A stretch of DNA of 36,138 nt, from positions 1 through 36,138 of the forward strand of contig JAJKHS010000010.1 in assembly GCA_021154885.1 (NCBI GenBank). Direction: 5' to 3'. Positions 18,431-29,197 of the stretch are shown here, piece after piece. The notes under the pieces were generated by a model. It was not told the DNA's origin. It saw only the letters and a program-made list of their open reading frames with translations, and ran no database searches. The position numbers and the translations under genes are program-made. Position 1 is the stretch's first letter. Every line of letters starts with the position of its first letter. The stretch comes from Thermoanaerobaculum sp. (GTDB lineage: Bacteria; Acidobacteriota; Thermoanaerobaculia; Multivoradales; UBA5704).

Positions 18431-18465
18431 CTTTCCGCTCCGGACACTTAATTGTCACCAGGGGC

Positions 18466-18558
18466 GACCGCATCCTCGCTCGTTGAGCGAGAGGGCACCT
18501 TGGGTGTCCGTCCCAGGTTGCCGAGCCCGGCCGCAGGCCGGACCGCTCGTAATGCAAG
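18466..18558 (-). promoter_or_regulatory. SAM-I/IV-clan riboswitch-like aptamer of metH
   Basis: Read on the minus strand: P1 5' strand GCAT (18555-18552, extendable by GU pairs), J1/2 TACGAGCGG, P2 CCGGCC-TGC-GGCCGG (18541-18527), the conserved GGCAACCT (18522-18515) pairing with AGGTGCC (18500-18494), P4 (18491-18475, 6 bp, 5-nt loop) and the P1 3' strand ATGC (18473-18470). GGCAACC...GGTGCC in a four-way fold is the hallmark of SAM-I and SAM-IV aptamers. The P1 5' strand with J1/2 (18555-18543) is complementary over 13 pairs with one bulge to 18416-18429, inside the terminator. High SAM should therefore close P1, free the terminator and lower metH. The exact class (SAM-I, SAM-IV or an intermediate) needs a covariance model. 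Confidence 0.75.
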
Positions 18559-18562
18559 GAGG

Positions 18563-24868: not shown

Positions 24869-26054
24869 GCTCGCTCTCCTCCTCGCCCGGCACGGAGACC
24901 GGGTCTGCTAAATCATTGAAACTTTTGGAATCGTTCGCCGCGGCCTCGCCGCGGAAGACCTCCATCTGCCGGCGCAGCTCCTGGGCGAGAGGGAGATGGA
25001 CCTCGCGCTGCCCGGCCGCGCCGGGGTACCCCCAGAGACCGCTGTGGCAATGGCGGTCGTCGTCCCATCCCGGGTAGTCGAGGATTGGGTAGAGGCAGAT
25101 GCCATGGACGGGTACGCCCTGCCGGCGAGCCGCCAGCACCTCGCCGGCGACGTAGCGCAGCCAGCCGGCGCGAGCTCCCTCCTGAGCGCCGGTCTCGGCC
25201 ACGATCAGGGGCCGGCCGTAGCGGTCGAAAACTTCGCGCAGGATCTCCCGGAACGGGCGGTAGAGCGGATCGCCCAACCGCACTCCCCGGCCGTCGAGGA
25301 GCCACTGGTTCTCGGGGTAGTAGTTGAGGCCCAGGCCCCCCAGGTAGCGCTCGTCGCCGCCGAGCTGCGGCCAGAGCCGGCCGAGGATCAGGTCCCAGGC
25401 CTCGAACTGCGCCCGGCGATGCCCCTCGGCGTCCGCCTGCCGCTCCGGCCGGTCCGGGCCGGCCACGATGTGGATGGCCGGCTCGCAGGCGAGGACGCGC
25501 GCGCGGGAGTCGACGCTCCACACCGCGTCCGCCGCCGCCAGGAAGGCGCGGGCGAGCTGGGCTTTGAGCTCGAACCCGCGGCCGGTGGCAAAGGGGTTGA
25601 GGCAGGCCACTTCGCCTCCCCCCCAGGCCCAGAACGAGATCTCGTTGACCGGCGTGTACCACGGCGGCTGGTCGGTCTCGGCGGCGATCAGCCGGGCCAC
25701 CGCCCGGGCATAGGCCGCGAAGCGGTCCACGAAGTCCGGCCGGAAGACGTCGAGGTCGTCGAGATCGTTCGGCCAGCCGTAGTGGCAGAGGTCCCAGATC
25801 ACCTGCACCCCCGCTTCCCGGGCCGCCCGCACCTGCGGCAGCAGGGAGGAGAAGTCCCAGCGGCCGGGGGCAGGCTCCACGCGATGCCAACGCACCCCGT
25901 CGCGCACCGTGGTCATTCCAAGGTTGCGGACGCGAGCGTAGTCGGCGGCGGCGAAACGGTCGTGCTCGGTCGCTGCGATCAGGTCGAGACGCCTGCCATC
26001 ACGCCGATGGTGACAGGAACACTCGAAGCCGGCCATCCAGAAGCTCTGAAACAT
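24855..26054 (-). CDS. Clan A (TIM-barrel) glycoside hydrolase-like protein
   Basis: 399 residues from ATG 26054. The protein begins FQSFWMAGFECSCHHRRDGRRLDLIAATEHDRFAAADYARVRNLGM-like and continues TVRDGVRWHRVEPAPGRWDFS, a GH1/GH5-like (beta/alpha)8 barrel entry. The acid/base is E138 in TPVNEIS at the end of strand 4, and the nucleophile is E287 in LIVAETGA at the end of strand 7, so retaining glycosidase chemistry is possible. There is no signal peptide, which is unusual for a scavenging glycosidase and fits processing of an intracellular glycan or a sugar-nucleotide intermediate. It is the first gene of the operon with the glycosyltransferase and glf. The low-complexity acidic end (PGEEESEHAAS) overlaps the next gene. 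Confidence 0.8.
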   Translation of the reverse strand: MFQSFWMAGFECSCHHRRDGRRLDLIAATEHDRFAAADYARVRNLGMTTVRDGVRWHRVEPAPGRWDFSSLLPQVRAAREAGVQVIWDLCHYGWPNDLDDLDVFRPDFVDRFAAYARAVARLIAAETDQPPWYTPVNEISFWAWGGGEVACLNPFATGRGFELKAQLARAFLAAADAVWSVDSRARVLACEPAIHIVAGPDRPERQADAEGHRRAQFEAWDLILGRLWPQLGGDERYLGGLGLNYYPENQWLLDGRGVRLGDPLYRPFREILREVFDRYGRPLIVAETGAQEGARAGWLRYVAGEVLAARRQGVPVHGICLYPILDYPGWDDDRHCHSGLWGYPGAAGQREVHLPLAQELRRQMEVFRGEAAANDSKSFNDLADPVSVPGEEESEHAAS

Positions 26055-26331
26055 GGGACCTGAACAATTTCCCCCTCTCTGGCGCGGTCAATTGTGCAAG
26101 ACCTGGACCACGCACCCGGAACGTGCCTTCCCCCTGGGAGGGGCGAGCTTCTTCGCCGGAAGAGGGAAAACGACCGGGGAAAGTGGGTACCGCGGAGCTT
26201 GCAAGAGCTACACGCCGGCCGGACCTTTCTTCAGTGTTCCGCCTTCCTTTGAAACGGCACCTAAGAAATAGAAGGCCGGCACACCGCGCGGTCGTGGTGA
26301 CCGCCCGCTCACCCGGCCTGGAGGGATTTTC

Positions 26332-26445
26332 ATGATCTCCAGAACGTCTCCCGACAGCCCGCGGACCGCACCCCAAGGTGGCATCCTCCACTTCCTGCTC
26401 CGGATCTTCGCCTTCGCCGGGGGCACCATGGACCCCAACGGCTAG
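26332..26445 (+). CDS. 37-residue hydrophobic peptide ORF upstream of the TPR gene
   Basis: ATG 26332 has an excellent ribosome site, GGAGGGA (26320-26326), 5 nt upstream. The peptide has a polar Ser/Thr/Pro N-terminus, a hydrophobic helix (ILHFLLRIFAF) and the end GGTMDPNG before TAG 26443-26445. It is followed after 15 bp by a strong intrinsic terminator. It has no signal-peptidase site and could be a membrane peptide, an exported signal or a leader peptide. I recall similar short ORFs ending MDPNG in related genomes but cannot verify this. The 277 bp upstream, back to 26055, contain GCCGGCC/GGCCGGC inverted repeats and no other gene that I can support. The strong ribosome site and terminator are the evidence that it is expressed. 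Confidence 0.6.
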   Translation: MISRTSPDSPRTAPQGGILHFLLRIFAFAGGTMDPNG

Positions 26446-26460
26446 CACCAGTTCCACCCC

Positions 26461-26494
26461 GACACCGGCGTCGTGCGCGCCGGTGTCACTTTTT
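26461..26494 (+). terminator. Strong intrinsic terminator between the peptide ORF and the TPR gene
   Basis: A perfect 10-bp stem GACACCGGCG/CGCCGGTGTC (26461-26470 with 26478-26487) with a 7-nt loop is followed by AC and five T (26490-26494). It ends 26 bp before the TPR start codon. The TPR gene must therefore be read through it or use a promoter squeezed inside it. This is the layout of an attenuator. Confidence 0.88.
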
Positions 26495-26520
26495 CCGGCC
26501 CAGCAGCAACTTAATGGTAG

Positions 26521-27888
26521 ATGGATGCCAATCACCCTGACCGGCAGACTCTCGAGAGATTCGCCCAGGCCGGAGTCTCGGCCGCCGAGGAGCGCTGGAT
26601 CGAGAGCCACCTCCGTTCCGGCTGCCGGGTCTGCCAGCGGGAGGTGGACCATCTGCTGGGGACGCTGAGCCCGGCCCCGGAAGCCGCGCCGGTCCCGGAC
26701 GCGGCGGACGCGGCGGAGGCGAGCTTCGCCTCCTGGAAAGGCCTCTTCGCCCAGCTCGAACAGAGGCTCGCCCTGGTGACGGCGGAGCGGCGCGCGGCGC
26801 CCCCGTTGCTGGCGGAGCTGCTGGGCTACCCGCCGGCCGAGCGGCCGGTCCTGGTGCGCCAGTGCCGCCGTTTCCAGACCCTGGCCGTCTGCGAGCAGCT
26901 CGTCGACGCCAGCTTCGAGGCGGGGTTCCACGACGCGGGCCAGTCGGTGGAGCTGGCCGAGCTGGGTCTCCTGCTGGCCGGCCATCTCGACGCCGGGCAC
27001 TACGGCCGCTCCGTGGTGCTGGATCTTCAGGCGCGGGCCTGGGCCTACCTCGGCAACGCCCGGCGTATCGCCTTCGACCTGGCCGGCGCCGAGGAGGCCC
27101 TGAACCAGGCCGAGGGCCTGGCCGAGAGCGGCTCGGCCGATCCCCTGGAGGAGGCCCGCATCCTCGATCTCCGCGCCTCCCTGCTCGGCGATCAGGGGCG
27201 CTTCGAGCAGGCCGCCGACCTGCTCGACCTGGTCATCGACATCTACCAGGACCTGCACGAGCCCCACCGCCAGGGGCGTGCGATGATCAGCCAGGGGGTC
27301 TTCCTGGGCCACGCCGGCTGGCCCGAGGAGGCCATCCGCCAGATCCGCAAGGGCCTCGCCCTGCTGGAATGGGAGCGCGAGCCACGGCTGGTGCTGATGG
27401 CGCGCCACAACCTTGCCTGGTTCCTGAACGACTGCGAGCGCAGCGAGGAGGCCCTGCGGCAGCTCGCGCGCTTCCGCCACACCTACCGTGAGTTCCCCGA
27501 TGCCTGGACCGAGTTGCGCCTCGCCTGGCTGGACGGCCGCATCGCCGCTCGCCTGGGCCGTCCCGGGGAGGCCGAGCGGAGCCTGATCGAGGTGCGGCAG
27601 CGCTTCCTCGCCGAGGGACACGGCTACGACGCCTCGCTGGTGACCCTCGACCTCGCGCAGCTCTATCTCCAGCAGGGGCGCAACGCCGAGGTGCGCGAGC
27701 TCGCCGCCGGCATGCTCGCCGTCTTCCTCTCCCAGGACGTCCACCGCCAGGCCGTCGCCGCCCTCACCGTCTTCCAGCAGGCGGCCGAGCTCGACCGCGC
27801 CACCCCCCTGCTGCTGGAGGAGATCGCCGCCTACCTGCGGCGGGCGCGGCGCAATCCGCGGCTGCGCTTCGAAAAGGCGGCGGCGTAG
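26521..27888 (+). CDS. Zinc-finger/TPR protein, possible regulator or scaffold
   Basis: 455 residues from ATG 26521; the ribosome site is weak (GGTAG). The N-terminal 45 residues hold H30-x4-C35-x2-C38 in ESHLRSGCRVCQREV, like the zinc-binding anti-sigma (zf-HC2) module. After an Ala/Pro linker (46-70) come helical repeats of about 40 residues (about 100-430) with A/L-rich TPR spacing, for example RARAWAYLGNARRIAFDLAGAEEALNQAE and ARHNLAWFLNDCERSEEALRQLARFR. There is no membrane span, HTH or enzyme domain. Anti-sigma-type fingers and TPR arrays both mediate protein or peptide binding. The preceding peptide ORF and terminator suggest joint control. No sigma factor is adjacent, so its partner is unknown. 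Confidence 0.7.
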   Translation: MDANHPDRQTLERFAQAGVSAAEERWIESHLRSGCRVCQREVDHLLGTLSPAPEAAPVPDAADAAEASFASWKGLFAQLEQRLALVTAERRAAPPLLAELLGYPPAERPVLVRQCRRFQTLAVCEQLVDASFEAGFHDAGQSVELAELGLLLAGHLDAGHYGRSVVLDLQARAWAYLGNARRIAFDLAGAEEALNQAEGLAESGSADPLEEARILDLRASLLGDQGRFEQAADLLDLVIDIYQDLHEPHRQGRAMISQGVFLGHAGWPEEAIRQIRKGLALLEWEREPRLVLMARHNLAWFLNDCERSEEALRQLARFRHTYREFPDAWTELRLAWLDGRIAARLGRPGEAERSLIEVRQRFLAEGHGYDASLVTLDLAQLYLQQGRNAEVRELAAGMLAVFLSQDVHRQAVAALTVFQQAAELDRATPLLLEEIAAYLRRARRNPRLRFEKAAA

Positions 27889-27927
27889 GGCCCTTCAAGA
27901 AAAGAAGGAAAAACAAGGAGTAAGCCG

Positions 27928-27944
27928 GCCGGCGGGACGCCGGC
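27928..27944. repeat. Short hairpin between the TPR and YcaQ-like genes
   Basis: GCCGGC-GGGAC-GCCGGC (27928-27944) is followed by a second inverted repeat, CCCAGGG-GG-CCCTGGG (about 27948-27963). The pair fills most of the 91-bp gap and resembles dispersed GC-rich intergenic repeats. It may serve as the 3' end of the TPR transcript. Confidence 0.5.
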
Positions 27945-27979
27945 GGTCCCAGGGGGCCCTGGGTTATCCTTCTTGCCCG

Positions 27980-29197
27980 ATGCCCAAGACCTCTCCACTC
28001 CCGGTCATTCCGGCCGGCACCGCCCGCCGCCTGCTGCTGGGCGCCCAGGGGCTGCTCGACGACCCCCGCCGCAAGGCGACGCCGGACGTCCTCTACGACC
28101 TGATCGCGCGCATGGGTTTCGTCCAGATCGACTCCATCAACGTCGTGGCCCGCGCCCATCACCTGACGCTCGCCTCCCGCCTCCAGGGGTACCGGCCGGC
28201 CCTGCTGGAGCGGCTGCTGGAGCGCGAGCGGCGGCTCTTCGAGCACTGGACCCACGACGCTGCGGCCATCCCCACCGTCTGGTATCCGCACTGGAAGCCG
28301 CGGTTCGAGCGCTACCGGCAGAAGGTGCTCGGGCATCCCTGGTGGCTGGAACGCGTGGGGCCGGACCCCTACCGGGTGTTCGCTCACGTGCGCGAGCGCA
28401 TCGTCAAGGAAGGGCCGCTGATGACCAAGGACTTCGAGGACGAGCGGCCCGCGGGGACCGACAAGACCTGGTGGGGGTGGAAGCCCCACAAGGCCGCCCT
28501 GGAGTACCTCTGGCGCACCGGCGAGCTCGCCATCGCCGGGCGGGTCAACTTCCACAAGGTCTACGACCTCGCCGCGCGCGTCCTGCCGGCAGCCCACGCC
28601 GCGCCGGCGCCGGGCGACGAGGAGCACCTCGACTGGGCCTGCCGCTCGGCCCTGGAGCGGCTGGGGGTCGCCACGGCCGACGAGCTCGCCGGCTTCTGGC
28701 GCGCCGTGTCCCTGGAGGCGGCGCGGAGCTGGGGGGAGCGGGCCGCAGCCCGGGGGGAGGTCGCGACCGTCGAAGTGGCGACCGCCGACGGCTCCAAGCC
28801 GCGCAAGGCCTGGGCGGTCCCCGATTGGGAGGAGCGGGCCGCGGCGCTGCCCGCCGCCCCGCCGCGCGTCCGCCTGCTCTCCCCGTTCGACCCGATCCTC
28901 CGTGATCGCAAGCGCACGCTGCGCCTCTTCAACTTCGATTACCGCTTCGAGGCCTTCGTGCCCGGCCCCCAGCGCCAGCACGGCTACTACGTGCTGCCGA
29001 TCCTCGAAGGCGAGCGCCTGGTGGGCCGGCTCGACCCCAAGCTCCATCGCGAACAGGGGCTGCTGGAGATCCGCGGGCTGTGGTGGGAGCCCGGGGTACG
29101 GGCGAGCCAGGGGCGGAGGGCGAACCTGGAGGCGGCGGTCGAGCGGCTGGCGCGGATGGTAGAAGCGACCGAGATAGCGTTCGGCAAGGTGATGTGA
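27980..29197 (+). CDS. YcaQ/AlkX-type winged-helix DNA glycosylase homologue
   Basis: 405 residues from ATG 27980; a TATCCT box 9 nt upstream suggests a very short or absent leader. The N-terminal block LARMGFVQIDSINVVARAHHLTLASRL-like carries Q49-x-D51, the catalytic QxD pair of the YcaQ (DUF1006, HTH_42) family. HWTHDAAAIPTVWYPHWKPRF and a C-terminal LLSPFDPILRDRKRTLRLFNFDYRFEAFVP follow, the most conserved stretch of the family. E. coli YcaQ unhooks interstrand crosslinks and removes bulky N7 lesions; family members in antibiotic producers give self-resistance to alkylators. No biosynthetic cluster is nearby, so general repair is the likely role. Length and motifs agree with the family. 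Confidence 0.88.
   Translation: MPKTSPLPVIPAGTARRLLLGAQGLLDDPRRKATPDVLYDLIARMGFVQIDSINVVARAHHLTLASRLQGYRPALLERLLERERRLFEHWTHDAAAIPTVWYPHWKPRFERYRQKVLGHPWWLERVGPDPYRVFAHVRERIVKEGPLMTKDFEDERPAGTDKTWWGWKPHKAALEYLWRTGELAIAGRVNFHKVYDLAARVLPAAHAAPAPGDEEHLDWACRSALERLGVATADELAGFWRAVSLEAARSWGERAAARGEVATVEVATADGSKPRKAWAVPDWEERAAALPAAPPRVRLLSPFDPILRDRKRTLRLFNFDYRFEAFVPGPQRQHGYYVLPILEGERLVGRLDPKLHREQGLLEIRGLWWEPGVRASQGRRANLEAAVERLARMVEATEIAFGKVM

Follow-up and report, generated by a model that had tools for sequence, protein, structure and literature searches.

The DNA window analysed here, a stretch of 36,138 nucleotides that makes up contig C10 of a genome of 8.2 Mb assembled as 161 contigs, holds a small peptide gene beside a gene for a TPR protein, and sequence comparisons place this locus as one of about fifty peptide/TPR pairs in one Acidobacteriota genome. 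Our preferred explanation, which we hold to be rather probable, is that the DPxG peptides of these pairs are exported, re-imported and bound by the cytoplasmic TPR regulators encoded next door, with dozens of private channels in operation.

The peptide ORF of the window (26332–26445, forward strand) encodes 37 residues and is preceded by a Shine-Dalgarno sequence, GGAGGG, at 26320–26325 (forward strand), 6 nt 5′ of its ATG; the ORF and its strong ribosome site are thus present as originally predicted. Its tail, GGTMDPNG (26419–26442, forward strand), had been thought to look like a conserved tag, and this was borne out by the recurrence of the motif, as GxxxDPxG and often repeated, across the family. 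The strong terminator described between the two genes was likewise found, as an intrinsic-terminator-like hairpin followed by a T-tract (26461–26494, forward strand). The hairpin (26461–26487) has an 11-bp stem and a loop of 5, folds by itself with −22.1 kcal/mol (z = −3.2), and is followed by TTTTT at 26490–26494, 26 nt 5′ of the ATG at 26521. The proposed receptor or regulator, a finger-TPR protein of 455 residues (26521–27888, forward strand), is predicted to consist of an anti-sigma-like, finger-like head, HxxxxCxxC, in residues 1–49 (26521–26667, forward strand; alignment and model) and a TPR superhelix in residues ~86–440 (26776–27840, forward strand; Pfam and model). Its description as a zinc-finger/TPR protein holds for the repeats, which Pfam recognises (TPR_12, 1.1e-7; TPR_10, 1e-6), and for an N-terminal H..H-x4-C-x2-C pattern; no Pfam zinc-finger family was matched at E ≤ 0.1. 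No sigma-70 consensus promoter for the TPR gene was found in 26000–28050, and a scan of the window with Rfam at gathering score gave nothing at the peptide/TPR locus. The single Rfam match lies elsewhere, a SAM-I/IV riboswitch at 18438–18560 on the reverse strand (RF01725; 43 bits, above the gathering score). Downstream of the TPR gene, at 27980–29197 on the forward strand, is a gene for an AlkZ-like DNA glycosylase (PF06224, 5e-71).

Comparison with two same-genus orthologues indicates that the window pair is atypical of its family. The orthologous pairs are L089 in genome G070 and L191 in G069 (partial), with receptors 71% and 67% identical to that of the window; their precursors are 72 and 71 residues long, have a signal-like start and end in GGAMDPNGAH and GGALDPNGAH, respectively. 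The window peptide gene is shorter than that of L089 by 99 nt, which the alignment divides into in-frame gaps of 51 nt and 48 nt, and the absent nucleotides include the hydrophobic core of the signal peptide. All three loci keep the Shine-Dalgarno site (TGGAGGG in both orthologues) and the stem core and T-tract of the terminator. The distance from the end of the stem to the receptor start codon is 33 nt in the window versus 88 nt in L089 and 87 nt in L191, the last figure presuming a TTG start, and the GGGGGAGGAA ribosome site that precedes the receptor start in both orthologues is gone in the window. The very short gap between terminator and TPR gene is peculiar to the window genome and looks like a deletion. 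Judged by these alignments, the window pair has lost its signal peptide relative to its orthologues, and likewise the leader with the receptor's ribosome site; it may be decaying, have turned into a non-secreted private signal, or be misassembled. Because both elements are absent, decay or a secondary shift to an intracellular role is probable. The window peptide was not among the listed matches (52 of 55) of the peptide profile described below, and we count it in the family on the strength of its motif and its orthologues.

Matches to the window TPR protein numbered 70 in its own genome, fragments included (E ≤ 0.001), and small ORFs with DPxG near the C-terminus were found beside most of these TPR genes: in 33 ORFs, DP[N/D]G lay no more than six residues from the stop, and a second rule that included hydropathy gave 50 peptides. 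A strict coding pattern, G-x-M-D-P-[N/D]-G followed by TRR, occurred twice in the 8.2 Mb, each time next to a TPR paralogue, versus no occurrence of the reversed control. Since the first small-ORF searches were confined to the surroundings of TPR genes, we ran a peptide profile (alignment A4, 31 rows) against whole genomes. In the own genome it gave 55 matches at E ≤ 0.01, of which the 52 listed merge into 44 loci. A TPR match lay within 1 kb of 41 of these 44 loci, in zones that make up 2.3% of the genome (binomial P = 1e-63); the other three were the orphans L212 and L213 and one of three tandem peptides, 1,250 nt away. Counted from the TPR side, a peptide (a profile match or a member of the 50-peptide rule set) lay within 1 kb of 49 of the 57 genes with a matched stretch of 330–500 residues. 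Among the eight others are two, both in L040, that lie with intact ECF sigma genes. The original prediction had made its case depend on conservation of a short peptide ORF beside TPR genes, and the two counts, 49/57 and 41/44, bear this out. Three family peptides (L212:4151–4402, L213:3867–4148 and L214:5939–6202) lack a TPR match in the stretches examined and count as orphans, and L045:3007–4146 carries three tandem, very similar DPxG peptide genes adjoining a TPR gene.

The pairing extends to other genomes of the order. In the best peptide-fetched locus from each of 25 other genomes, a TPR match was present in 14 of 15 cases where the peptide matched at E ≤ 1e-4 and in 2 of 10 where it matched more weakly; four further peptide loci of genome G041 all contained one. 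Of the 71 order genomes compared, 38 have the TPR family (E ≤ 1e-30); the peptide (E ≤ 1e-4) was found in 16 of these and in none of the other 33. The remaining 22 TPR-family genomes gave no peptide match at this threshold, and some of them show divergent precursors by eye. Among 247 genomes across the phylum, the peptide was present in at least four (two of this order, two weak) and the TPR family (E ≤ 1e-40) in at least six, all of the same class; counts across order and phylum are lower bounds, since the candidates scored in each genome were capped in number. Outside the order, the peptide profile gave two weak matches, in G231 and G246, neither with a TPR match in its locus. Weak matches in genus g25 (L138–L142) share a common unrelated ending and were taken as chance. 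A survey of the order with the exact pattern GGNNNNATGGAYCCNRAYGGNTRR recovered the own genome only (1 of 72) and was replaced by profiles because the pattern was too strict. A scan of the genome_contigs collection with the single protein found no relative, and a search of that collection with alignment A3 found three loci.

A typical precursor consists of a basic stretch, a hydrophobic segment, a Trp-rich segment (consensus LWxWLxxLW) and one to four copies of GxxxDP[N/D]G. By a simple heuristic rule, a signal-like N-terminus is present in 26 of the 33 DP[N/D]G-ended ORFs versus 47 of 1,650 length-matched control ORFs. The leaderless 37-residue peptide of the original prediction is therefore not the family form: own-genome precursors have a median length of 101 residues (range 37–135), most have a signal-like start, and the window peptide, one of the seven ORFs without such an N-terminus, belongs to a copy that has lost its signal. 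Scans of four peptides each found no family in Pfam (window, L039, L047 and L075) or NCBIfam (L039, L074, L089 and L098).

The variable residues of the motif agree within a precursor and track the receptor. In the 40 precursors that have the motif at least twice, identity between copies over the four positions preceding DP was 0.71 versus 0.36 after shuffling (highest of 2,000 shuffles, 0.46), and both copies can change together between orthologues, as with QGSGVDPNG twice in L169 and QGSALDPNG twice in L154. In Mantel tests on 52 upstream-type pairs, receptor distance correlated with motif distance (0.30; reached in 0 of 2,000 permutations), and did so with signal-peptide distance removed (partial Mantel, 0.295; 0 of 2,000). 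Motif distance hardly followed signal-peptide distance (0.07; 256 of 2,000). Receptor distance also correlated with signal-peptide distance (0.24; 1 of 2,000), and shared descent must therefore play a part. Such covariation of receptor and motif is what a ligand-receptor pair should show, with shared descent only partly controlled. The dN/dS values ranged from 0.26 to 1.07 for peptides and from 0.16 to 0.48 for their TPR partners, and were higher for the peptide in 12 of the 14 pairs with both values (exceptions, L075/L075 and window/L089, the latter 0.42 vs 0.43); we take this only as a hint because the pairs share ancestors and gaps. Three closely similar pairs in G071 (L176, L177 and L178) have receptors 84–90% identical and motifs that differ at single residues (GCHIDP, GCYIDP); on these similarities they are assigned to recent duplications, useful for specificity tests.

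These results also bear on a different reading, in which the secreted DPxG proteins are effectors, such as bacteriocin-like, adhesive or metal-binding surface peptides, and the TPR regulator controls their expression or immunity and binds no signal. Convergent and upstream gene layouts would fit a regulator beside its target gene, the Trp-rich segment precedes the repeats, and the DPDG/DPNG turns could bind ions. However, if the regulator had no contact with the peptide, one would expect neither the agreement of copies within one precursor nor a motif similarity that tracks TPR similarity and hardly that of the signal peptide. We therefore disfavour the effector reading and judge it improbable.

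Analysis of gene layout separated the pairs into classes that differ in motif and receptor head. Of 119 peptide ORFs (weak matches included, presumed duplicate loci left out), 63 have their nearest TPR gene downstream on the same strand, 38 are convergent with it and 6 divergent, 1 has it in reverse order, and for 11 the locus contains none; the contigs G071:C162 and G069:C241, both with peptide and TPR matches, are absent from this set. The motif is Cys-bounded, GCxxDPxG..C, in 31 of 38 convergent pairs versus 2 of 59 upstream pairs. Receptor heads in the family are of two kinds, HTH domains and HxxxCxxC fingers, and some finger-receptor genes have an ECF sigma gene as neighbour. In the upstream class, 48 of 63 heads are fingers and the other 15 were left unclassified by the pattern-based classifier, as were 71 of the 166 TPR ORFs overall; finger columns H13, H36, C40 and C43 (L039 numbering) are invariant in the 14 sequences of alignment A2. 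Convergent-class receptors have an HTH domain where examined (HTH_3 in L050 and L074, by Pfam). Ten further heads unclassified by pattern comprised seven of HTH families (E ≤ 0.01), one sigma70 region-4-like helix-turn-helix and two with no match. Many stop-to-stop frames of the HTH class exceed 500 residues (e.g., 505–596).

The finger had originally been taken as an anti-sigma-type head, and neighbouring genes sustain this for part of the family. An ECF sigma gene lies between the peptide and receptor genes in L097 and before the receptor gene in L040 (both confirmed by Pfam), as well as before the receptor gene in L102 and L105 (sequence pattern only). Most finger loci have no sigma gene by pattern search, and no ECF sigma gene adjoining the window's own TPR gene was found. 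Short sigma-2-like ORFs were noted just before finger-TPR genes at L041:3812–4300, L043:2284–2625 and L119:2078–2473, the last from reading of the sequence alone; Pfam detected no sigma domain in those of L041 and L043. Genes downstream of own-genome finger-TPR genes showed no common theme or target by eye.

A strict terminator was present in 15 of 62 peptide-to-TPR gaps, the window included, versus 1.3 expected from shuffles, and terminators between peptide and receptor thus appear to be in part a family feature. The original prediction had proposed that the terminator yields much peptide and little receptor, or makes TPR expression depend on events at the leader; this holds at best in part, given a strict terminator in 15 of 62 gaps and a short gap in the window that looks like a deletion. 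A separate reading is attenuation by a leader peptide, in which translation of the peptide ORF sets read-through into the TPR gene and the peptide product is inert. The strong Shine-Dalgarno site, the terminator and a stem conserved in three species would suit it, as would the enrichment. Against it, 47 of the 62 gaps contain no strict terminator, both orthologues have a separate receptor ribosome site, and attenuation of the nearest TPR gene is impossible for the 38 of 119 peptides that are convergent to it. We regard attenuation as very improbable.

The predicted structure of the window receptor would suit peptide binding. A model built from three sequences (mean pLDDT 85.1, pTM 0.71) is all helical repeat and finger, with a head of three helices; a model of a fused read-through peptide-TPR protein was uninformative (mean pLDDT 54.5). 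In the best 50 structural matches listed, the first eleven rows are LGN/Pins (Z 24.6–26.1), followed by TSK (22.1). The top bacterial structures among the matches listed are the NprR–NprX peptide complex (Z 21.6 with 292 aligned, rmsd 4.4), Rap bound to CSF (Z 21.5) and RapI (Z 21.4). PlcR, Rgg, PrgX and AimR were not among these best 50 (VIA-align), which excludes nothing. The suggested likeness to Rap/PlcR-type receptors thus holds for the fold, near NprR and Rap, and found no counterpart in a profile search of the PDB, where no RNPP protein was among the matches listed (60 of 127). Because TPR superhelices resemble each other widely, we read the NprR/Rap match as a suitable fold and not as kinship.

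A receptor of helical repeats and a finger, encoded together with its precursor, would also suit a monitor of export, in which precursor left behind in the cytoplasm is detected by the TPR protein and the pair reports Sec capacity, not neighbours. The signal-less precursor of the window, still in frame after losing 99 nt, is in keeping with this. Such a monitor, however, hardly explains about fifty differently tagged pairs per genome, or why the repeated, pair-specific part is the C-terminal tag, and we consider it distinctly unlikely.

Under our preferred explanation, a small precursor with a signal peptide, a Trp-rich segment and one to four GxxxDP[N/D]G copies would normally be exported by Sec and trimmed outside the inner membrane into short DPxG peptides. 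An importer, perhaps of the OppA type, would return these to the cytoplasm, where the TPR protein of the adjacent gene would bind them in its groove. The occupied receptor would then change the state of its output head (an HTH in some pairs, in others an anti-sigma-type HxxxCxxC finger, with an ECF sigma gene adjoining at some loci) and thereby transcription. Since the residues before DP are particular to each pair, dozens of private channels could operate in one cell. The own genome has two SBP_bac_5 genes for OppA-type binding proteins. Several points count against the proposal: uptake would need to cross the outer membrane as well, and the eukaryotic LGN outscores NprR/Rap (Z 26.1 vs 21.6). 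So do the eight TPR genes with no nearby peptide, the three orphan peptides, the 22 TPR-family genomes lacking a peptide match at E ≤ 1e-4, the absence of the window peptide from the listed profile matches and of RNPP proteins from the listed PDB matches, and the lack of a common theme by eye among genes after finger-TPR genes.

The fullest form of the proposal, which we rate as an even call, is that intracellular peptide pheromones evolved independently in one Acidobacteriota order, as a system whose channels run in parallel by the dozen in a genome. From each exported precursor would come several near-identical DPxG turn peptides, linear in the finger class and closed by a disulphide in the HTH class, and one TPR receptor with ECF sigma/anti-sigma or HTH output would read them. 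If this is true, RRNPP-type peptide-TPR signalling extends beyond Firmicutes, a single genome can have about fifty distinct peptide channels, and the paired, diverged repeats offer a ready set for learning how TPRs read peptides and for building orthogonal signalling parts. It would also be the first peptide-signalling hypothesis for a poorly cultured phylum; among the open-licence PMC matches listed, nothing concerned a DPxG peptide family or RRNPP in Acidobacteriota.

Several known systems resemble the pairs in part. LGN/Pins, a eukaryotic cell-polarity scaffold with peptide-binding TPRs, supplies the best structural matches to the window receptor and, to our knowledge, has no DNA-binding or sigma-linked head. 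The NsdA family of TPR-like regulators, for which we know of no peptide partner, gives a weak TPR match (NCBIfam NF053720; E = 1.8e-6, 27.7 bits, curated cut-off 75 bits). An ECF sigma factor paired with a zinc-binding anti-sigma factor is a known system, and the Acidobacteriota pairs resemble it in the HxxxCxxC head and, at the four loci named above, in a neighbouring ECF sigma gene. Unlike that system, and unlike the ECF42 sigma factors whose C-terminal TPR extension is described in PMC8999054, the pairs have the TPR fused to the finger, not to the sigma factor, and a putative secreted-peptide gene attached.

The closest comparison is with RRNPP/RRNPPA quorum sensing (Rap-Phr, NprR-NprX, PlcR-PapR, Rgg-SHP), which PMC10075063 and PMC9765709 describe in Firmicutes; the study of PMC10075063 analysed only Firmicutes and virus genomes. 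It used five criteria: a propeptide of 10–100 aa, a Sec-type signal, a receptor of 250–500 aa, TPRs and neighbouring genes. In the Acidobacteriota pairs, a gene for a small, putatively Sec-exported precursor likewise lies beside one for a cytoplasmic TPR protein. Most members have the signal by heuristic, with the window peptide lacking it and its two orthologues having it; 24 of the 50 own-genome precursors fall within 100 aa and 26 exceed it; the window receptor, at 455 aa, lies within the length range, beyond which HTH-class frames often extend; and the receptors carry TPRs by Pfam and model. One class of receptors also shares the HTH head, and the fold match reaches Z of about 21. Several pheromones per precursor are known in RRNPP as well (PMC11343458), as are many pairs per genome, with over 25 in Paenibacillus (PMC7425212). 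The pairs differ from RRNPP in their phylum, in the GxxxDPxG motif (Cys-bounded in the convergent class), in reaching about fifty in one genome, in finger heads with neighbouring ECF sigma genes, and in having no sequence link to RNPP proteins among the 60 of 127 PDB matches. Because phylum, peptide family and heads differ and the link between the receptors is one of fold, we do not file the pairs as members of RRNPP; by analogy, they most likely work like RRNPP while standing apart from it.
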